A stretch of 64,000 nucleotides of DNA from positions 248,001 through 312,000 of the forward strand of contig CAMLMH010000002.1 of NCBI GenBank assembly GCA_946481315.1, read 5' to 3'. Made by a program: the position numbers and the translations under genes. Positions 4,851 to 42,476 of the stretch are shown piece after piece; positions within the stretch are counted from its first letter, which is position 1, and each line of letters begins with the position of its first letter. This stretch comes from an uncultured Bacteriovorax sp. GTDB taxonomy: Bacteria > Bdellovibrionota > Bacteriovoracia > Bacteriovoracales > Bacteriovoracaceae. The notes under the pieces are model-generated. The model did not search any database, was not told where the DNA came from, and was given only the letters and a program-made list of their open reading frames with translations.

Positions 4851-5566
4851 TAGATATTCTCCGCGAAAGAATCACTTAAAATCAAACCGTCAGAAATTTT
4901 AATCTGTCTTCTTGTTTTGGCGATGAGATCCATATCATGTGAGCAAAGCATGACCGTGACTTGAAGGTCCTTTTGTAAATCAGTTAACAACTCGAAGACT
5001 TCCTCGGAAGTACGGGTATCGAGATTGGCAGTAGGTTCATCCGCCAGAATCAAAGTAGGACTTTTGACAATTGCACGGGCAATGGCAACTCTTTGGCGTT
5101 GTCCTCCGGAGAGCTGGGCAGGTCTGCGATGAGTAAAGTCCTGTAACCCCACTCGTTTAAGTGCCTGGTAAGATCGCTCCTTTCTTTCGGCTTCAGGAAT
5201 GTTCAGCAACATTAAAGGATATTCAACATTTTCCAGACTGCTTAGCAACGGAAGAAGATTAAATGACTGAAAGATATAACCTATATCCTGTGCTCTGATT
5301 AATGAAAGCTCTTTATCGTTCAGGTCGTTTATATTTTTATTTTTAACAAAAAGTTTTCCTCGCGTAGGTGGATCTATCAGGCCAGCAATGTTTAGAAGAG
5401 TTGTTTTTCCACTGCCTGATTTTCCAGAAAGTCCAATGAATTCACCTTTGTGGATAGTGAAGCTGATATCCTTTAATGCCTGAAATTCTACACCTTCAGA
5501 ATAGAAAATTTTTTGAATGTTTTCGAATCGAAAAACTGCATTGCTTGTATTTGAATGAGTGCTCAT
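4850..5566 (-). CDS. ABC transporter ATP-binding protein, LolD/MacB type
   Basis: 238-residue ATPase partner of the permease encoded just downstream. Walker A is [11 protein letters not shown], the Q-loop is [22 protein letters not shown], the signature is [14 protein letters not shown] and Walker B is LILADEPT followed by the D-loop SANLD-like TANLD. The [21 protein letters not shown] Q-loop region is typical of LolD/MacB/FtsE-class ATPases. It is the third gene of a four-gene operon read leftward from 7574. LolD itself is normally encoded beside lolC/lolE with a canonical LolA elsewhere, so I do not assign the lol symbol. Biochemically it should hydrolyse ATP to power the periplasmic movement of the permease. 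Confidence 0.9.
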
Positions 5567-30409: not shown

Positions 30410-33013
30410 ATGAAAGCTGAAGCACCAAAGATTATTAAACTAAGTGAATACAAAGCACCTGACTATTTTGTTGAAACAATCGACCTGACTGTCACTTTGG
30501 ATAACACTAAGACTTTAGTGCAGTCAAAAATGCTTTTAAAAAGAAATGCGGCGGCTGATTGTCCGCTGGTTTTAAACGGTGAAGAACTGGTTTTAAAATC
30601 AGTGAAGATCAATGGCTTCAATCACTCCGATTACAAATACGATACCGAAGCCAATCTCTTAACGATTAATAAAGTCGGAGCTGAGTTTACGCTCGAGATT
30701 GAAAACGAAATCAACCCGGAAGCCAATAAAACGCTCGACGGTCTCTATAAATCAGGAACGATTTTCTGTACGCAAAATGAGCCGGAAGGATTCCGTAGAA
30801 TCACATTTTACATCGATCGTCCGGACAACATGGCGAAATTCACTACTAAAATTATCGCTGATAAAAAACTTTATCCGGTTCTTCTTTGTAATGGAAATCC
30901 TATTGCCCGCGGTGACCTGGATGGCGGAAGACATTTTGTGACATGGGAAGATCCCTTCAAAAAGCCTTGTTACTTATACGCCTTAGTCGCGGGTGACCTG
31001 GGTGTTATTAAAGATACGTATACAACTAAATCTGGCCGCAAAGTGGCGCTTGAAATTTACTGTGACAAAGGAAACGAGTCTAAATGCCATCACGCGATGG
31101 AGTCTCTTAAAAAATCGATGAAGTGGGATGAGGATCGTTTTGGCCTGGAGTACGATCTGGATATCTATATGATTGTGGCCGTTGATGCTTTTAATATGGG
31201 CGCGATGGAAAACAAAGGTCTCAATATCTTCAACAGCGCTTATGTTCTTGCTGATCAAAAATCAGCAACAGACACCAACTTTTATGGAATTGAATCAGTC
31301 ATTGGTCACGAGTACTTTCACAACTGGACCGGAAACCGCATTACCTGTCGTGACTGGTTTCAGCTGACACTAAAAGAAGGATTAACTGTTTTCCGCGACC
31401 AGGAATTCTCTGCTGATATGAACTCAAGAAATGTTGAGCGTATTCAATCAGTGCAAGGACTTCGGGCGGCACAGTTCCCGGAAGATCAGGGACCGACTTC
31501 GCATCCGATCAAGCCAGAAACTTATATGGAAATTAACAATTTCTATACTGCGACCATTTATGAAAAAGGAGCGGAAGTTATCCGCATGATTCAAACCCTT
31601 CTTGGACGTGATGGATTCAGACGCGGAATGGATAAATATTTCGAACTCTTCGATGGTCAGGCGGTTCGCACTGAAGATTTTATTCATGCTATGAGTGTCG
31701 CTAACAACAATTTCGACTTCACTCAATTTAAAAACTGGTACTCGCAAAACGGTACACCACTTCTCTCAGCAACAACGAAATATGATGAAGCATCTAAAAC
31801 GTTCTCGCTGACATTAAAGCAGTCTCTTCCGCACAATGCGCCAGCAGGAGCAAAGTATTATCACATGCCGATTAAGGTAGGTCTGATCGATTCTGCCGGA
31901 AAAGACATGACCGAAAAAGTTCTTGAACTAAAACTAGAAGAGCAGACTTTCACGTTTGAAAATATTGCTACTAAGCCAATTGCTTCTATCAACCGCGATT
32001 TTTCTGCGCCAGTGAAATTAACAACTGATCATTCATTCGATGACCTGCTGTTTTTAATGTCTCACGATAAAGATGCATTCAACAGATTCGAAGCATCGCA
32101 AGTTGTAGCGACAAAAATTATGCTGGAGTTGTTAGAAGATGCCAAAGCGGGAAGAACGCTTGAAGTTCCAACGAAGTACGTTGAGGCCTGGGGAAAAATC
32201 CTGAAGGATGCATCAATTGACGAAGCTTTTAAGGCCCTCTCAATGACCCTTCCTTCAGAAGGAATTCTGCATCAGGAACAAAAAGTTATTTTTTATCCAG
32301 AGACAGAGAAGGTGAGAAATTTTGTTAAGAAATCTCTCGCGACCGCTCACCAAAAAGATCTTCTGGCCGTTTATTCTCAGGTCAACTTAGAAGGAGAATT
32401 TAAAATTGATCCAAAGGCCATGGGCCAGCGTGATTTGAAAAACAAATGTCTTGATCTTCTGGCTTTTGTCGATGGAGAAAAATTTGTTTCACTGGCATTT
32501 GATCAGTTTACAAAAGCAACCAACATGACAGATGAATTGGGAGCATTGACAGTGCTTGTGCATACTCAGGCACCTAAATCCGATGAAGCCGTTAAATCTT
32601 TCTATAACAAATGGAAGCATGAAACACTGGTAATGCAAAAATGGTTAACTGTGCAGGCTGCCGCATCTCAGGAATCCACTTTCAACCGTATTCTGGAACT
32701 GGAAAAAGATGCTGTCTACGACCGGACCATTCCAAATCTGGTTCGTTCATTGCTAGCAACGTTTGCTGGAGTGAATAAGGTTCAGTTCAATCATCCATCT
32801 GGTCGCGGTTATAAACTGATCGCTGATCGCATGCTTGAACTTGATAAACTCAATCCTCAGGTGGCCTCTCGACTGGCGTCGGCCTACAAAGACTTTAACC
32901 GTCTGCCGGCCAACCTTAAATCACTGATGCAGATTGAACTGGAACGGGTATTAAAGACAGAGGGACTTTCAAAAAACGTTTATGAAATCGTTTCTAAAAT
33001 TCTCGGCGCATGA
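30410..33013 (+). CDS. pepN: Aminopeptidase N (M1 family)
   Basis: Broad-specificity cytoplasmic zinc aminopeptidase of 867 residues, matching E. coli PepN in length. The exopeptidase motif GAMENKGLN and the zinc motif HEYFHNWTGNRITCRDWFQ with distal Glu in LTLKEGLTVF are present, followed by the VEGIYEKGAEV-type helix (TATIYEKGAEVIRM). The C-terminal half is the PepN-specific beta and alpha-superhelical region. The ATG has AAGGAG at a good distance. For a predator it would help recycle prey peptides, but it is a housekeeping enzyme in most bacteria. Confidence 0.96.
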   Translation: MKAEAPKIIKLSEYKAPDYFVETIDLTVTLDNTKTLVQSKMLLKRNAAADCPLVLNGEELVLKSVKINGFNHSDYKYDTEANLLTINKVGAEFTLEIENEINPEANKTLDGLYKSGTIFCTQNEPEGFRRITFYIDRPDNMAKFTTKIIADKKLYPVLLCNGNPIARGDLDGGRHFVTWEDPFKKPCYLYALVAGDLGVIKDTYTTKSGRKVALEIYCDKGNESKCHHAMESLKKSMKWDEDRFGLEYDLDIYMIVAVDAFNMGAMENKGLNIFNSAYVLADQKSATDTNFYGIESVIGHEYFHNWTGNRITCRDWFQLTLKEGLTVFRDQEFSADMNSRNVERIQSVQGLRAAQFPEDQGPTSHPIKPETYMEINNFYTATIYEKGAEVIRMIQTLLGRDGFRRGMDKYFELFDGQAVRTEDFIHAMSVANNNFDFTQFKNWYSQNGTPLLSATTKYDEASKTFSLTLKQSLPHNAPAGAKYYHMPIKVGLIDSAGKDMTEKVLELKLEEQTFTFENIATKPIASINRDFSAPVKLTTDHSFDDLLFLMSHDKDAFNRFEASQVVATKIMLELLEDAKAGRTLEVPTKYVEAWGKILKDASIDEAFKALSMTLPSEGILHQEQKVIFYPETEKVRNFVKKSLATAHQKDLLAVYSQVNLEGEFKIDPKAMGQRDLKNKCLDLLAFVDGEKFVSLAFDQFTKATNMTDELGALTVLVHTQAPKSDEAVKSFYNKWKHETLVMQKWLTVQAAASQESTFNRILELEKDAVYDRTIPNLVRSLLATFAGVNKVQFNHPSGRGYKLIADRMLELDKLNPQVASRLASAYKDFNRLPANLKSLMQIELERVLKTEGLSKNVYEIVSKILGA

Positions 33014-33017
33014 GTCC

Positions 33018-33491
33018 ATGAGTCTTAGACAAAAAATTCTTTATACTTTAATGAATTACTGGCCCCCATTTTTGGGGGCCGGTATTTCTGTTGACCGTGT
33101 CGCCAAAGACTTCACGGAAATTGATGTTTCCATGAAACTCAAGGCCACCAACAAAAATTACGTAGGAACCCATTACGGCGGATCACTTTACTCAATGACC
33201 GATCCGTTTTACATGCTGATGCTTATTCAGTTACTGGGCCGTCACTATATCGTCTGGGATAAAGCCGCGACTATTAAGTTTATTAAACCAGGGATCGGAA
33301 AAGTTCATGCCAGGTTTCGTCTTTCCACCGAACAGATTGATCAGTTTAAACGTGAACTGGAAATTGATAAAAAAATAGAACCTATATTGTGGGTGGATAT
33401 CACCGACGAAAAAGGGGACATCGTTGCCCGGGTTCAGAAAATTCTCTACATAAAAAAGAAATCAGAGCACAAAGTCGCGGCAGGGATTTGA
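33018..33491 (+). CDS. DUF4442 (hotdog/thioesterase-like) protein
   Basis: 157-residue protein starting at the ATG 4 bases after the pepN stop. A start upstream inside pepN is less likely. The central segment YVGTHYGGSLYSMTDPFYMLML is the DUF4442 signature and resembles the long helix of hotdog-fold thioesterases. No classical thioesterase acid is obvious. The 3' end overlaps the convergent peptidase gene by 30 bases. Function unknown, possibly acyl-thioester binding. Confidence 0.83.
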   Translation: MSLRQKILYTLMNYWPPFLGAGISVDRVAKDFTEIDVSMKLKATNKNYVGTHYGGSLYSMTDPFYMLMLIQLLGRHYIVWDKAATIKFIKPGIGKVHARFRLSTEQIDQFKRELEIDKKIEPILWVDITDEKGDIVARVQKILYIKKKSEHKVAAGI

Positions 33492-34916
33492 TCGGCCGGC
33501 ATTTTCTTTCTTCACTTTATTATAAGAAGCATTATAGAGAAGTTTTTCATCGCGTTTAATCCTGTTGGCCAGATTATAAGTGCTTTCTACCATTTTATCG
33601 TAATTGGCAGCGACTCTGGCCGCTGAAAAGAGATCCGGCTTTCTGGCCGCGAGTTCTTCTTTTTTTCTTTTAAGTGCAATAAAATAAGTTTTTGCGCGGA
33701 TTAAGTCAGCATCACCGGGAGCATTAAGCAGTTCAAGATCTTTCTTCGCTATAATCTCCTCATAGTTAGTTCTGAAGAGTTCCCCTAACGTTATGGGAGT
33801 ATCCATAAACCCTGCAACAGAAATCGTTTCAACGGTCTGCAGTTGACGTGTATTGGTTTTCTTCAATTCCTGTAACATTTTGTCCTGAACGTCTTTATAC
33901 GCCTTGATATTTTCTTTTAATGAGGAAAGATCCATTCCTATTTCTTCATAAGTCCAGAAGAGAAAGCGTCTCTGAACCCGGTTAGCCGCCTCGATTTCGC
34001 TGATGAATTTATTTATTTTTTTAAAATCTTCTTCTCTTTTTTGCATATGGCAGGTCAGATCTTCCTGGGATAGTTTCGTTAGATATGATCCAAGTTTATC
34101 TCCATCTGGATTAGCATGGTAAAGATAAGGAGTTATCGCCTCATAAAGACTTTCATTCATTATCCGGTCTTCCGGTGTTGAGATCATCGGTGTACCATTG
34201 TCATAATCGGTCACTTCCCGTGCTTCCAGGAATACCTCTTCCAGGTTTCTTCCGCTCTTTAATCTGGAAACAAAATGATCTCCAAATGTACCAGGCCCGG
34301 TGTATCCGAGATGATTTGGACCTGTAGAGGAAATCACACAGGTGTTCTCATCAGCAAGTGCCTGTGAAGCTCCGGAGTGGCAGGAGAGATCAATTATGGC
34401 GAGTTTAACACCGTTGTTACGGGCCATTGTTCTTAATGCAAGTAACTTATCCATGCTGACGACTTCAGATCCTTTTGCAGTTGTAGTATCCGTGATCGCC
34501 GCCCCTGAAAGGGATATTGAATGGGTGAGTTGACCTTCTTCTTTTTGTCCACCATGTGTATCTACATACAACATTAAATTTGAGCCGGGCCCAATCAAAC
34601 CTCTACTGATCTTATCGGTGTAATCATCGATTAAAAGATTGTACTGATTTTCTGTAAAATTTGATTTTGTGCCAATATTTGTAAATTTACGGGTGATGAT
34701 TTCTTCTGTTTCGGAGTGGCCTCCGTTAAAGGCCATTCTGGAATAGTTCCAGCTCTTACTCTTAAAATAATCACCCAGCTGAGTAAGATTATTATCAAAA
34801 ATCGTATTTGTTCCTTTTGGTTCTCCACCACCACCCAGGATAAGAATATTTGACGTGAAAGGCTGAGCTAGTGCAAGTTGAGGGATTAGGACAGAAGTGA
34901 TCAGTAACTTTTTCAT
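33462..34916 (-). CDS. Secreted caspase-fold (clan CD) peptidase, paralogue A
   Basis: 484 residues with a signal peptide (MKKLL start, cleavage near ALAQPF). The catalytic domain (about 22-285) starts with ILILGGGGEPKGTNTIFD and contains FNGGHSETEEI. The clan CD dyad is His121-Gly122 at the end of a hydrophobic strand (LMLYVDTHGG) and Cys179 after another (LAIIDLSCHSG). The remaining ~200 residues are helical and charged, with a closing NPCR. The upstream frame from a GTG adds only two residues; the ATG at 34916 forms an ATGA overlap with the small-protein stop, so they are translationally coupled. Substrate and whether it self-processes are unknown. Confidence 0.8.
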   Translation of the reverse strand: MKKLLITSVLIPQLALAQPFTSNILILGGGGEPKGTNTIFDNNLTQLGDYFKSKSWNYSRMAFNGGHSETEEIITRKFTNIGTKSNFTENQYNLLIDDYTDKISRGLIGPGSNLMLYVDTHGGQKEEGQLTHSISLSGAAITDTTTAKGSEVVSMDKLLALRTMARNNGVKLAIIDLSCHSGASQALADENTCVISSTGPNHLGYTGPGTFGDHFVSRLKSGRNLEEVFLEAREVTDYDNGTPMISTPEDRIMNESLYEAITPYLYHANPDGDKLGSYLTKLSQEDLTCHMQKREEDFKKINKFISEIEAANRVQRRFLFWTYEEIGMDLSSLKENIKAYKDVQDKMLQELKKTNTRQLQTVETISVAGFMDTPITLGELFRTNYEEIIAKKDLELLNAPGDADLIRAKTYFIALKRKKEELAARKPDLFSAARVAANYDKMVESTYNLANRIKRDEKLLYNASYNKVKKENAGRSNPCRDFVL

Positions 34917-35266
34917 TTGCACCTGGCCTGTTTTAAGACTTTTAACTTTTCGACGGGGTGGTAAACAGGATCTGGAACTCGTAATTCAATTTTATTAATC
35001 GCCGTCAGCGATCCCTTTGTTCCATCAAATTTTTTATCTATCAAAATAGTCGCAGTTACTGGCCGGTTCATATAAGCGTAGAGTTTGGCTTCCCAGTTAA
35101 CCGGGGCCGTAATTGTCACTTGTGATTTACTTTTTTCGTTAACAAATATTACTGCGCGTCCCTTATGTTCACGAACAAAACCTTCTAGCTCATATAAACC
35201 ACAGGCCTGGGCAGGCCCGCTCAAAAAGGTGAATACGATCAGTGAACTCATCAGTTCTATTTTCAT
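34913..35266 (-). CDS. Small secreted partner protein A
   Basis: 117 residues with a signal peptide (cleavage near PAQACG). The mature ~95 residues form a beta-rich domain with Cys right after cleavage (ACGLYELEGFVRE) and at the end (ARCK), likely disulfide-linked. It shares the pattern CGxYxxxGxVR, RPVTxxxL, KF-xxx-KG and LRxPxP with the protein at 35396-35779. The stop overlaps the start of peptidase A (ATGA), so the pair is made together. A role as inhibitor, chaperone or activator of the peptidase is a guess. If mature CG is a lipobox it lacks the usual L-x-x-C, so I read it as soluble. Confidence 0.72.
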   Translation of the reverse strand: MKIELMSSLIVFTFLSGPAQACGLYELEGFVREHKGRAVIFVNEKSKSQVTITAPVNWEAKLYAYMNRPVTATILIDKKFDGTKGSLTAINKIELRVPDPVYHPVEKLKVLKQARCK

Positions 35267-35395
35267 CGATCCTTAAAATTGTAACCGCCCTTCTTTAAAA
35301 TTTGTCAGCGTAATTTAATGATTACAATTGCTTAGTTCTTTTCGGAGAGAAAGTATTAAAGCTTTAATATGACCTGAAAGATTGGCAACTAGTGA

Positions 35396-35779
35396 TTATT
35401 TAAGGCAGGGAGTTTCATTTAAAAGGAAAAAACCAGTATCTCGTGGATTAAGCGGAGCAGGAATGCGCAAACTAGCTTCACTCACAATTTGTGAGGCATA
35501 TCCCTTTTGGTGTTCAAATTTACGCTCGAGCAGTAGGGACACGGTCACTGGTCTGTCAGCAAAAGGAGTCAATTTTCCATGTTCAAATTTGTCTAATGCA
35601 ATAACGATCTCTGAAAGCGTTTTTTCGTGAACAATTACTTTGATTTCATCATCTCGTAACCTAACGATACCGTTGACCTGATATTCACCACATTTTTGTG
35701 GCGACTGTTGCATTTCTTTGGCCTGTAAAGAAAAAATTATTATCATCAAAGAAGTAAAGAGCGCGAACTTATAAAACAT
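35396..35779 (-). CDS. Small secreted partner protein B
   Basis: 127 residues with a signal peptide (cleavage near SLQAKEM), AAAGGA-type ribosome site before the ATG, and the same mature pattern as protein A: CGEYQVNGIVRL, RPVTVSLLLERKFEHQKG, LRIPAPLNP and a final PCLK. The start lies 12 bases after the stop of peptidase B on the same strand, so the two are probably co-transcribed. It does not overlap peptidase A's partner; a 129-base gap at 35267-35395 separates them. No family known to me. Confidence 0.72.
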   Translation of the reverse strand: MFYKFALFTSLMIIIFSLQAKEMQQSPQKCGEYQVNGIVRLRDDEIKVIVHEKTLSEIVIALDKFEHGKLTPFADRPVTVSLLLERKFEHQKGYASQIVSEASLRIPAPLNPRDTGFFLLNETPCLK

Positions 35780-35790
35780 GAGATTCCTTT

Positions 35791-37224
35791 CTACATTTTA
35801 ATTTTTCTGCAAGGATCATTGTAATTGAGACCCTGACGCATTTTATAAAGATCATCGTAAAACTTGCGTTCTTCCTTCGCAATTGATTCAGCGGTGTTGC
35901 GGTTTTCACCCATGAGTTTGACTATCTCTTTACTTTCTTTTTCTGCGTTTCTAATGTCCGGATATTGAAAAAGAATTTCTTCTTTTTTTCTGCGCATTTT
36001 TTTATGATGTTCTACCTGTGCTGTTAAAAAAGCTTTTTCTTTCGGGTTCTTTTCCTTTGCCACTTTGGCTGAGTAATGGGCAATCCATTTATCAGGATCT
36101 TCGTTGAGTAAGTTTTTCCAGCTATGAGTAATGGCCAGAGGGCGAGGTGAGCCTGCAACCGGTGTGATAAACTGTTCCTGCTTATCCAGGTTATGTCCAC
36201 CGAGATTACGAATTTTGTTCAGCAATTCATCCTGCTGTCTTTTATATTGTGTAAGCATATTTTTTAACTGATCAGCATAAGGACTACCTGGAACAAGCTT
36301 CTTGAAATTTTCAATTTTTCTGATGAGATCATTGAACTGCTCTTCTCTTCTGCACACTAGCTGATCTTTGCTGTTTTCTGTGAGGTAGCCTGTCATTTTA
36401 TCTGCAGTGGGATCATAGTAGTAAAGATAAGGAGTAATATGATTATACATATCTTTGACGATGCTTTGATTTTCTTCGGTACTGATCATGGGATAAGAAG
36501 CATCATTGGATTCGGCACGGGCCTTTAAAAAAGCCTGCTCCATGGTTGTTCCGGGTTTAAAGCTTGATAAGAATTTATCCATAAAGGCACCGCCACCGGT
36601 GAAAGCATAGTGAATGGGGCCGGTAGCTGTTACAATACAGGTGTTGGGTGATTTTAGTTTCTGAGTGCTGCCAGAGTGGCAACTTAAGTCGACGATTCCC
36701 ATTGTGATGCCCCGTTCATTGGTGAGTTTCACCAGTTCGGCCAGATCATCCACGTTTACGAGATTAGCATTTGAGAGATTGTTGAGGTCACCGGCAGCTT
36801 TTCCTGTTGTTGCAATCAGGTGAGTCTCTTGTCGGCCATTATTCTGAGCGCCGTGTGTATTGAGAATGACTACAAACTGATCACCAGGACGGATTTCACC
36901 CAGAAGAATTTTTGCTTTATAATTTTCTATTAACTCTTTGTAGTTTTTCGATGTGAAGTTGGATGTTTTTGTTGATCTGGGAAATTGTTCGCGCAGAATT
37001 TTTTCTGTTTCAGTATGTCCTCCGTTAAAAGACATTTCATATTGCCAGCCAGAATTGTTCAGGTTAGGAGCGAACCCTTTAAGACCGCCATCAAAAATGG
37101 TTTTTCTCCCTTCCGGTTCACCACCGCCACCTAAAAAGGCCAGGTAGTTTTCGGCATAAACACAAGTGGTACTAAGAGCTAAACAAAGAATGGAGAGAGT
37201 GTAAGTCAGTTTCATAATCTCCAT
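35791..37224 (-). CDS. Secreted caspase-fold (clan CD) peptidase, paralogue B
   Basis: 477 residues, clearly paralogous to the protein at 33462-34916. It has a signal peptide (cleavage near CVYAEN), LAFLGGGGEPEGRKTIFD, FNGGHTETEKI, the His124-Gly125 dyad partner (FVVILNTHGAQ) and Cys182 (MGIVDLSCHSG). The His-to-Cys distance (58) is the same in both. The C-terminal helical part ends with DPCRKIKM. An alternative start at 37215 (MKLTY) would still leave the signal peptide intact. The partner gene B follows after 11 bases. Clan CD includes caspases, legumain, gingipain and separase; the exact subfamily is open. Confidence 0.8.
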   Translation of the reverse strand: MEIMKLTYTLSILCLALSTTCVYAENYLAFLGGGGEPEGRKTIFDGGLKGFAPNLNNSGWQYEMSFNGGHTETEKILREQFPRSTKTSNFTSKNYKELIENYKAKILLGEIRPGDQFVVILNTHGAQNNGRQETHLIATTGKAAGDLNNLSNANLVNVDDLAELVKLTNERGITMGIVDLSCHSGSTQKLKSPNTCIVTATGPIHYAFTGGGAFMDKFLSSFKPGTTMEQAFLKARAESNDASYPMISTEENQSIVKDMYNHITPYLYYYDPTADKMTGYLTENSKDQLVCRREEQFNDLIRKIENFKKLVPGSPYADQLKNMLTQYKRQQDELLNKIRNLGGHNLDKQEQFITPVAGSPRPLAITHSWKNLLNEDPDKWIAHYSAKVAKEKNPKEKAFLTAQVEHHKKMRRKKEEILFQYPDIRNAEKESKEIVKLMGENRNTAESIAKEERKFYDDLYKMRQGLNYNDPCRKIKM

Positions 37225-37306: not shown

Positions 37307-38332
37307 TTATTGAAGTAAACTTTTACCGGTTGATTTCAAATCATCACAGGCAGTGGCAATTCTTTCTGTCATACCTTTTTCAGCAAGTTTATTCCATTCC
37401 CGTGGGTCGTAATGTTTTTTAGAACCGACTTCGCCGTCGATTTTTAAAACCTTATCGTAGTTTTTAAGCATGTAATCTACAACGGGGCGAGTATAGGCAT
37501 ACTGAGTGTCTGTATCAATATTCATTTTGATGACTCCGTAGCCAAGTGTCTCGTGGATTTCATGCAGCTCTGATCCTGATCCTCCATGGAAAACCAGGTA
37601 GTGTTCAGCTTCTTTACCAAAGGCCTTTAGCACAGCCGCCTGACCATCGCGAAGAATAGTTGGCTTTAATTTAACATTACCAGGTTTGTAGACACCGTGA
37701 ACGTTACCAAAAGTAGCTGCGTACATAAAAGTTCCGATCGGACGGAGGGCCCGGCAGATTTCCACCATTTCTTCTGCTGTCGTATAGAGTTTATCGGCCG
37801 GAGTTCCTTCCGTATTGTGGCCGTCTTCTTCACCTCCAACAACACCTGTTTCAACTTCCAGGATCAGTTCACTCTTAGCAAAACGCTCTAAAAGCGCTTT
37901 AGACTGCTTAATATTTTCCGCAAGCGGAAGCTCTGATCCGTCAAACATATGGGAGTTAAACAGGTTGGGAAGTCCCTGAGCCCGTCTTTTTTCTGTTTCG
38001 GCCACCAGCGGGAGCATGAAACTGTCAACATACTGGGGATGACAGTGATCAGTGTGAAGAGCGATGAGCACATTGTATTTTTCGGCCATCAGGTGAACGT
38101 GCTGAGCCAGAGAAATCGCTCCAAGGGCCATATCACCAACTCCCTGACCGGAAGCAAACTTCCCCCCGCCGGTGGATACCTGAATGATCCCGTCCGAGCG
38201 TTTATCGGCAAAGGCCTTGAGGGCAGCATTGGCAGTTGACATAGACGTTACATTAATCGCTGGATACGCATATCCACCGAGTTTCGCCTTTTCTAACATT
38301 TGTTTATATTGTTTGGGTGTTGCAACAGGCAT
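37307..38332 (-). CDS. fbaA: Class II fructose-bisphosphate aldolase
   Basis: Zinc enzyme that splits fructose-1,6-bisphosphate into glyceraldehyde-3-phosphate and dihydroxyacetone phosphate. The 341-residue protein shows AYPAINVTSMSTANAAL, the metal and catalytic ALHTDHCHP (Asp and His), ILEVETGVVGGEEDGHN, ATFGNVHGVYKPGNVKL with zinc His, VFHGGSGS, and NIDTDTQYAYTRPV. Length and motifs fit the E. coli FbaA (type A) group. The ATG has AAGGAG. It is divergent from the dehydrogenase gene. Confidence 0.95.
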   Translation of the reverse strand: MPVATPKQYKQMLEKAKLGGYAYPAINVTSMSTANAALKAFADKRSDGIIQVSTGGGKFASGQGVGDMALGAISLAQHVHLMAEKYNVLIALHTDHCHPQYVDSFMLPLVAETEKRRAQGLPNLFNSHMFDGSELPLAENIKQSKALLERFAKSELILEVETGVVGGEEDGHNTEGTPADKLYTTAEEMVEICRALRPIGTFMYAATFGNVHGVYKPGNVKLKPTILRDGQAAVLKAFGKEAEHYLVFHGGSGSELHEIHETLGYGVIKMNIDTDTQYAYTRPVVDYMLKNYDKVLKIDGEVGSKKHYDPREWNKLAEKGMTERIATACDDLKSTGKSLLQ

Positions 38333-40642: not shown

Positions 40643-41998
40643 ATGAGTCGCACGCTTGTCATCTCGGACAATGAATTTCTGAACATCTTGTACATGATGA
40701 ACCTGGAAGTTTATCTAGGCACTGATGTGGATCTTGCGACAACCTATGAGACAGCGCAGGCCATGCTTAAGTCTAAAACAAAGTATGATCTGGTCATCGC
40801 TTTACATAGACTCGGAGGAGTGGATATTTCCAAAGCGTTACTCGAGTTTCGCGGCTCCTATGGCATCAAATCTCCTGTCGTCATTGTGGGTGGTGAAAAC
40901 GATCGTGAAATTGATCTAAAAACATTTGTTGTGGCTTCCAAATATGCCCTGCAGCCCCTTCTGAAACGATCAGCAACTATTCTGGGAGTAACAGCAAAAC
41001 AAATGGCAGCAATGGATGTAGGGGAGTACTATCCTCTCTCTTTGGCTTCGTTGGAATCACTATCAAGGGTTCCTTGTAATTTATACGTTCAGCAGGATGA
41101 GAAAAGTTATAAAAGCCTGGCCCGCGCTAACGATCCACTTGAACAGAGTTTTAAGCAGATTCGGGAACAAGGAATCGATAAGATCTTCGTTAAGAGTCAT
41201 GATCGTCTGTCAATTGTTAACAATGTTTCCATTAAGCTCATCGAAAGAATAACAGCTGCATTAAAAAATGCTGATCATCTTTCAACCGATAAGAAAGTGG
41301 AACTTCTTAACGATGGCTATGAGTTTGCAGCCGCTAATCTTTTCTCCAGTGAGGAAATTAAACAGGAGATGCAGGAAATTGCAACGGCATCCGCCAAGGT
41401 TATGCAGGATGTAGTCAAAGACAGCACTCATTTAAAGAATCTGCTGGCTTCAATGCTTCATAATAAAAGTGGTTATATTTTTACCCATTCTCTGATTGCC
41501 AGTTATACCGCAAATCACATAATCAAAAATGTCGCCTGGGGAGGAGAAGGACAAAGCGAGAAAATTAATTTTGTGCTTTTCTTTCACGATATTTATCTAG
41601 CACCTCTTTATTTGAAATACCCCAACCTGGGTGTTGAGCAGGAGCTTCTCACTTCCAAAGAACTTACTGAAAAAGAAAAAGAGATTTTTCTCAATCACGC
41701 AAAACTGGCCGCTGAACTGGTTGTTTCATATAAACGCTGTCCGATGGGAGCAGATGTCCTGATTAAACAGCATCATGGAATGAAAAAAGGATCTGGATTT
41801 GCGCTTCGTTTTCCGGAAGATCTCTCTCCCTTATCAAAAGTATTGGTTGTGGCCGAAGCTTTTGTGGAGCAATTTATGATCTGTCAAAAAGAGAATCGCA
41901 AAGTTGAAATGAAGATCATAATCCCCAAACTGATTGAAGACTTTCAGTCACAGTCATATATTAAAATTGTTCAGACCTTGGTGAATCTACCGCTGTAA
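40643..41998 (+). CDS. Receiver-like/HD-domain signalling protein (degenerate HD-GYP)
   Basis: 451 residues. The N-terminal ~125 residues look like a response-regulator receiver, but the phosphoacceptor position (YDLVIA) has Ala instead of Asp. The C-terminal half (from about 270) is an HD-type phosphohydrolase fold. It has HSLIAS, the FFHDIYL His-Asp at ~312, HAKLAAEL and KQHHGMKKGSGF at ~376. The last motif replaces GYP by GF-like residues. HD-GYP enzymes degrade c-di-GMP; with these changes the protein may bind rather than cleave it, or act on another nucleotide. No signal peptide. It is followed by a convergent gene 2 bases after the stop. Confidence 0.72.
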   Translation: MSRTLVISDNEFLNILYMMNLEVYLGTDVDLATTYETAQAMLKSKTKYDLVIALHRLGGVDISKALLEFRGSYGIKSPVVIVGGENDREIDLKTFVVASKYALQPLLKRSATILGVTAKQMAAMDVGEYYPLSLASLESLSRVPCNLYVQQDEKSYKSLARANDPLEQSFKQIREQGIDKIFVKSHDRLSIVNNVSIKLIERITAALKNADHLSTDKKVELLNDGYEFAAANLFSSEEIKQEMQEIATASAKVMQDVVKDSTHLKNLLASMLHNKSGYIFTHSLIASYTANHIIKNVAWGGEGQSEKINFVLFFHDIYLAPLYLKYPNLGVEQELLTSKELTEKEKEIFLNHAKLAAELVVSYKRCPMGADVLIKQHHGMKKGSGFALRFPEDLSPLSKVLVVAEAFVEQFMICQKENRKVEMKIIIPKLIEDFQSQSYIKIVQTLVNLPL

Positions 41999-41999
41999 G

Positions 42000-42476
42000 C
42001 TAATTTTTTGGTGGACAATATTTATTTCTGAATTCCGTCTGCTTATCGACTGCATCCCATTCCAGGCTTTCATCATTCAGATCCCAATTTTGGTACTTCA
42101 CCTGAAAATAATGAACCAGCTCATGCACAACAGAATCATCCATACAACGCTGATTGCGTTCGTACCATTCTGCATCGTCCATTATGTAGACTTCATTTCT
42201 TTCGACTGCAAAAGCATTCGTGAACACGTCCGGACGGAAGCCCCACTGTTTTTCCAGTGCATCCTGGAATTGTTTAAGCGGCGTAGAGCTGGCAAAAAAA
42301 TACTTCGGCATGGGAACGTCGTCGCGCTTTTCCAGGTTCTTCATTTCCAGCGTTTTATTGAAGAGAAATTCGAGTGTGTATTTCAACTTAGCAGGTGCCG
42401 GCGGTTTAGAACCAGCCCAGGACGCAGTTGATGTTAGAGTACATACGAGAAATGTCAGCAGAATTGATTTTTTCAT
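42000..42476 (-). CDS. Small secreted HELVH protein (DUF6647-like)
   Basis: 158 residues with a signal peptide (cleavage near SWAGSK). Near the end is VVHELVHYFQ, a HExxH zinc-binding motif, followed by ESLEWDAVDKQTEF, whose Glu could be a third ligand. This resembles small DUF6647-type proteins. It may be a secreted metallopeptidase or a zinc-binding domain that has lost activity. The start ATG has no good Shine-Dalgarno sequence. The upstream cyclase gene ends 57 bases away with a hairpin between them. Confidence 0.7.
   Translation of the reverse strand: MKKSILLTFLVCTLTSTASWAGSKPPAPAKLKYTLEFLFNKTLEMKNLEKRDDVPMPKYFFASSTPLKQFQDALEKQWGFRPDVFTNAFAVERNEVYIMDDAEWYERNQRCMDDSVVHELVHYFQVKYQNWDLNDESLEWDAVDKQTEFRNKYCPPKN

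Follow-up and report, generated by a model that had tools for sequence, protein, structure and literature searches.

Paired genes for clan CD-like peptidases with predicted export and small partners predicted as OB-like barrels in Bacteriovorax and other Bdellovibrionota

Predatory bacteria need exported hydrolases that digest prey without harming the producer, and to our knowledge few self-protection proteins are known in them. In an uncultured Bacteriovorax sp., a stretch of 64,000 nucleotides (contig CAMLMH010000002.1, positions 248,001 to 312,000), hereafter the window, carries two genes for peptidase-like proteins, each beside a gene for one of two small proteins, and raises the question of what such a partner does for its peptidase. 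The answer that we narrowly favour, by analogy with known gene pairs, is that the module joins a clan CD-like peptidase with predicted export to a cognate inhibitor, and that the enzyme would be active once the two are apart. The four genes, in window coordinates, are the following.

37224-35791, minus strand: peptidase B, 477 amino acids; clan CD-like peptidase with predicted export, putative catalytic pair H124/C182, C-terminal helical domain
35779-35396, minus strand: partner B, 127 amino acids; small protein with predicted export, predicted OB-like barrel, conserved Cys30 and Cys125
35266-34913, minus strand: partner A, 117 amino acids; paralogue of partner B with predicted export, Cys22 and Cys116
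34916-33462, minus strand: peptidase A, 484 amino acids from the ATG; clan CD-like peptidase with predicted export, putative catalytic pair H121/C179

The coordinates of the open reading frames (ORFs) agree with the minus-strand order given by the initial annotation (peptidase B, partner B, partner A, peptidase A), with the start of partner B 11 bases past the end of peptidase B, and with the ATGA overlap of the partner A TGA and the peptidase A ATG. The two pairs differ in order, partner B following its peptidase and partner A preceding it. As had been proposed, the peptidases are related (33% identity, E 2e-82, nearly full length, peptidase A lacking its first Met in the comparison) and the small proteins are paralogous (31% identity, E 2e-17). 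All four have a hydrophobic, signal-peptide-like N-terminus by a home-made hydropathy score. Predicted promoters (10 vs 8.8) and terminators (5 vs 3.6) lie near shuffled counts, so separate promoters are not claimed.

Is the pairing a property of the family? Relatives of the partner were collected by profile search, since partner A alone was insufficient, matching only itself among 4 candidates. The module is present across Bdellovibrionota, with a peptidase match in 67 and a partner match in 63 of 368 genomes searched. Of 43 peptidase matches in 38 scanned loci and the window, 42 lie within 600 bases of a same-strand partner match, and the exception (L036) begins at a contig end. In the 368 genomes, fragment merging leaves 105 peptidase places, 84 of them with a same-strand partner match within 1300 bases; among the strongest 78 matches (to E 1.1e-39, 46 genomes) the figure is 77, the exception (G010:C233) again beginning at a contig end. 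The 21 rows without a partner match divide into five that reveal a partner on closer reading (G044, G048, G195, G329:C65, G351), one with a doubtful partner (G213, E 0.4), five near a contig end and hence undecidable (G010:C233, G153:C245, G216, G291, G334), and ten partner-less rows. These ten are nine places, G350:C49 being counted twice (with G063, G159, two in G312, G336:C3, G339, G355:C72 and G358), and the gene in G339 is broken. In all, at least nine diverged peptidases seem to lack a partner. Since strong matches are almost all paired and diverged ones often are not, core members of the family are tied almost completely to a partner and diverged members loosely.

Viewed from the partner, the small proteins are not widespread without peptidase genes: 82 of 99 partner places in the 368 genomes lie beside a listed peptidase, and 14 of the remaining 17 adjoin a peptidase or caspase-like ORF on closer reading, one of them a decayed pair (L094). 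The last three are a place at a contig end (L093), an unclear one (L083) and one without a peptidase (L125). A weak partner match in a 384-amino-acid ORF with no neighbouring peptidase (L084), found in a smaller search outside the 99, is probably due to chance. At L083, a partner-like, lipoprotein-looking gene (5011-5445) overlaps the end of a 1455-amino-acid protein with predicted export and no detected peptidase match.

For comparison of the two families, 81 pairs were selected (peptidase E ≤ 1e-15 and at least 400 amino acids, partner no more than 250 bases away, without near-duplicates or unpaired ORFs); the set is preselected for pairing and therefore uninformative on its frequency. A similar hydropathy score finds a signal-peptide-like N-terminus in 80/81 peptidases and 80/81 partners. 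The peptidase and partner trees correlate (r 0.745, reached by 0 of 2000 shuffles), and swapping partners within genomes, with locus-to-genome labels that we assigned from the genome searches, lowered the correlation in 5000 of 5000 trials (mean 0.711). The true pairing ranked first in 11 of 13 genomes, against about 5 expected by chance and with some margins tiny; the exceptions were G002, with rank two, and G005, with rank three, where two peptidases share a partner. This shows that each pair is inherited as a unit, although agreement between trees cannot prove contact. The partner gene lies after that of the peptidase in 54 pairs and before it in 27, and by eye the order has switched several times on the tree, with the two window pairs on different branches. 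Two loci, L032 and L031, carry arrays in which one partner gene is flanked by two peptidases, the second peptidase of L031 being cut by the contig end.

What kind of enzyme is the peptidase? The initial annotation pointed to the caspase/legumain fold from a His-Gly and Cys signature, and a relative that shares 48% identity with peptidase B indeed has a predicted fold resembling legumain, MALT1 and metacaspase. By this model the family combines two features of clan CD cysteine peptidases, a caspase/legumain-type fold and His-Gly followed by Cys. The signature is present at H121/C179 in peptidase A and H124/C182 in peptidase B, and in the pair set the His, Gly and Cys are kept in 81, 80 and 81 of 81; a pattern search finds no HG...C motif in L139, a diverged unpaired relative. 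The 58-residue distance from His to Cys, first noticed in both window peptidases, holds there but is no family constant (exactly 58 in 20/81 relatives, range 43-66). Three further Cys of peptidase B are conserved, Cys196 in 81, Cys472 in 80 and Cys291 in 72 of 81 peptidases, and the C-terminal helical domain is fast-evolving.

Pfam, NCBIfam, PHROGs and PADLOC give no confident family for the four window proteins; peptidase B falls just under the curated cut-off of Pfam Peptidase_C14 (21.3 vs 21.4 bits) and peptidase A has no C14 match. Among 30 family members, one matches C14 at E ≤ 0.01 and one, not a window protein, matches Peptidase_C13 (legumain) with E 0.00055, while four unrelated families likewise match one member each. 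Against PDB sequences, peptidase B has a single match (E 8.6), and the peptidase profile has two (E 1.5 and 9.1), to helical proteins. Legumain (C13), metacaspases and paracaspase (C14) share the caspase-type fold and the His-Gly and Cys motifs, and legumain also has a C-terminal domain, described as self-inhibiting (PMC4357240). Besides the sub-threshold score, the family differs from C14 two residues before the catalytic Cys, where F, L or M stands in 54/81 peptidases and caspase-7 is described as having the P1-contacting Gln184 (PMC4357240); the specificity of the peptidase is therefore not readable by analogy.

The partner is predicted to fold as an OB-like barrel. Its better structural matches, at a modest Z, include potempin A, an exported protein described in PDB titles as a peptidase inhibitor, and generic OB-folds fill most of the list; a PDB sequence search with the partner profile gives no match. 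In the 81 pairs, the first Cys is conserved in 80, the last Cys in 79 and a Ser in 75, and exactly two Cys occur from the first conserved Cys onward in 67. To judge from the sequences, the first and last conserved Cys are probably joined by a disulphide. A pattern search finds a lipobox-like motif in 3/81 partners, and by eye there is none at the conserved Cys of the two window partners. A tandem model of the peptidase-partner pair of a relative reaches a pTM of 0.72, a score without interface information.

How does the module compare with known pairs? KLIKK proteases are metallo- or serine peptidases, and staphopain, SpeB and the C10 peptidases are papain-like, SpeB being coupled to the small inhibitor Spi; the peptidase here is caspase-like, of clan CD type, and is likened to the papain-like systems by gene pairing. 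In the KLIKK-potempin system of Tannerella forsythia, the gene for an exported peptidase likewise adjoins one for a small exported protein (PMC4404884, PMC7296668). The potempins are described as small lipoproteins that are encoded directly before KLIKK proteases and inhibit the co-encoded protease, on data cited there as unpublished (PMC7296668). In contrast to that system, the window peptidases end in CRDFVL and CRKIKM rather than KLIKK, the partner lies on either side of its peptidase, and lipobox-like motifs are rare. Staphopain-staphostatin and the Bacteroides C10 protease operons are described as pairing a cysteine peptidase with a small protein that is an inhibitor or resembles one (PMC3462683). 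A potempin A-like protein is reported as the predicted immunity partner of Tse2, a metallopeptidase effector of a type VI secretion system (PMC13340143). That system also sets an interbacterial peptidase beside a potempin A-like partner with a signal peptide, both assigned by comparison alone; it differs in the metallopeptidase-like enzyme, the PAAR fusion and the secretion route (PMC13340143). By analogy with these proteins, the partner is taken here as a cognate inhibitor.

Metacaspase operons with protease inhibition are noted in four Rhizobium strains (PMC3501461), so a caspase-inhibitor neighbourhood has already been noted elsewhere; it is likened to the module by description, the source giving annotation only and leaving the inhibitor family unnamed in its text. 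Bd3460 of Bdellovibrio is described as inhibiting hydrolases of the predator that makes it, but it has an ankyrin fold and targets peptidoglycan endopeptidases (PMC4686830).

The initial annotation proposed a cognate enzyme-partner system. The conserved pairing upholds the enzyme-partner unit, and the inhibitor role is suggested by analogy with potempins. In such a module, a cysteine peptidase with a caspase/legumain fold would be sent out of the cell to cleave proteins. The partner, an OB-barrel protein also exported and probably disulphide-closed, would bind and inhibit the peptidase encoded with it, within or on the cell that makes them, and the enzyme would gain activity away from it, for instance once in prey or the medium. 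In a serious rival, if a somewhat unlikely one, the partner serves as a chaperone devoted to folding or export, or remains in the mature complex as a structural or activating subunit. The tight genetic coupling in both orders fits this, as does the single partner between two peptidases in L032. The partner also tracks the C-terminal helical domain more closely than the catalytic domain (16 diverged pairs dropped), which favours this rival, by a measure that is weak because partner and C-terminal domain are both fast-evolving. A chaperone or subunit accords less well with a barrel that has an inhibitor among its better matches, at modest Z, and with diverged peptidases that manage without a partner.

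It is improbable that the targets of the peptidase are the envelope or proteins of the producer itself, in remodelling or orthocaspase-like regulated self-lysis, with the partner as a housekeeping brake and prey uninvolved. The chromosomal site beside the same metabolic genes in a minority of pairs would suit such a role, as would the lack of viral copies and, with peptidase B as the query, of plasmid copies; the presence of 2 to 4 copies in 22/67 matched genomes and the fast divergence would suit an outward role better, and a peptidase match is missing from 301/368 genomes, many of them incomplete and with only 4 candidates scored in each. We give very little weight to adjacency as operon inheritance alone, with products that work apart and a partner that binds, for example, nucleic acid or glycan. 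The generic OB-folds in its match list would allow this, but the pairing withstands great divergence and is found in either gene order and at several genomic places. Anti-phage defence and a mobile element were also considered and dropped.

A wider proposal, possible but on the doubtful side, extends the cognate inhibitor to a predation arsenal peculiar to Bdellovibrionota: polymorphic caspase/legumain-type peptidases would be exported at prey, each with an OB-barrel immunity protein shielding the predator, and would be duplicated and assorted like toxin-immunity pairs. If so, the partners could be the first characterised cognate inhibitor family for exported bacterial clan CD peptidases. The initial annotation knew of no described system with this composition. 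None was found in limited literature searches, but the principle of the gene pair is known from KLIKK-potempin and staphopain-staphostatin. At title and abstract level, the literature on Bdellovibrionota peptidases and caspases, bacterial clan CD inhibitors and predator self-protection yielded no such pair; the word 'caspase' is absent from the main text of a predation proteome (PMC12546842), and 'Bdellovibrio' from that of a survey of caspase homologues (PMC3501461). The combination of these two families seems to be new. The recurrent, uncharacterised module offers many natural pairs for studying inhibition, specificity and a role in predation, and possibly a new class of inhibitor for caspase/legumain-type enzymes.

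How far does the family reach? Peptidase B has 281 homologues, and the few named organisms among the 120 listed are Bacteriovorax or Bdellovibrionales. A search with the L096 peptidase returns 35 proteins, including hypothetical proteins of Bdellovibrio bacteriovorus and other Bdellovibrio, and the family therefore extends to a known predator. Occurrence outside Bdellovibrionota was covered by one pattern scan of genome contigs and by viral and plasmid collections. The scan gives 38 relatives among 55 pattern matches, at loci titled Bacteriovorax, Bacteriovoracaceae, Bdellovibrio, Bdellovibrionales or Oligoflexia; none of 21 pattern matches in viral contigs is a relative, and the plasmid collection has no match for peptidase B, the sole query. 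Per genome, 45 genomes have one peptidase copy, 9 have two, 11 have three and 2 have four (G350:C49 counted once), lower bounds because scoring stopped at 4 candidates per genome for the peptidase and 12 for the partner. Two decayed pairs, L094 (G016:C22) and L095 (G021:C31), have in-frame stops in peptidase and partner, so the module also gets lost. Far more diverged proteins with predicted export, HG...C motifs and adjoining partner-like genes (L080, L082, L116, L124) hint at a wider superfamily of pairs.

The module lies between two genes that are conserved flanks by synteny and stand outside it.

37307..38332, minus strand: class II fructose-bisphosphate aldolase (PF01116, E 2e-77)
32982..33491, plus strand: DUF4442 protein (PF14539, E 8.6e-23), presumably thioesterase-like

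The same four-gene layout between aldolase and DUF4442 genes recurs in L012, its second pair lying on a branch other than the window's. Aldolase, DUF4442, M1 aminopeptidase or E1 dehydrogenase genes occur within 5 kb of 14/81 pairs, many loci being too short to tell. A second recurrent setting, near apparent adenylosuccinate synthetase and deaminase genes (named by eye), is seen in L029, L030 and L037. Elsewhere in the window, a secreted-looking 158-amino-acid protein (42000-42476) and a 451-amino-acid protein (40643-41998), both without a Pfam match at E ≤ 1e-5, have by eye look-alikes near the same locus in L004.
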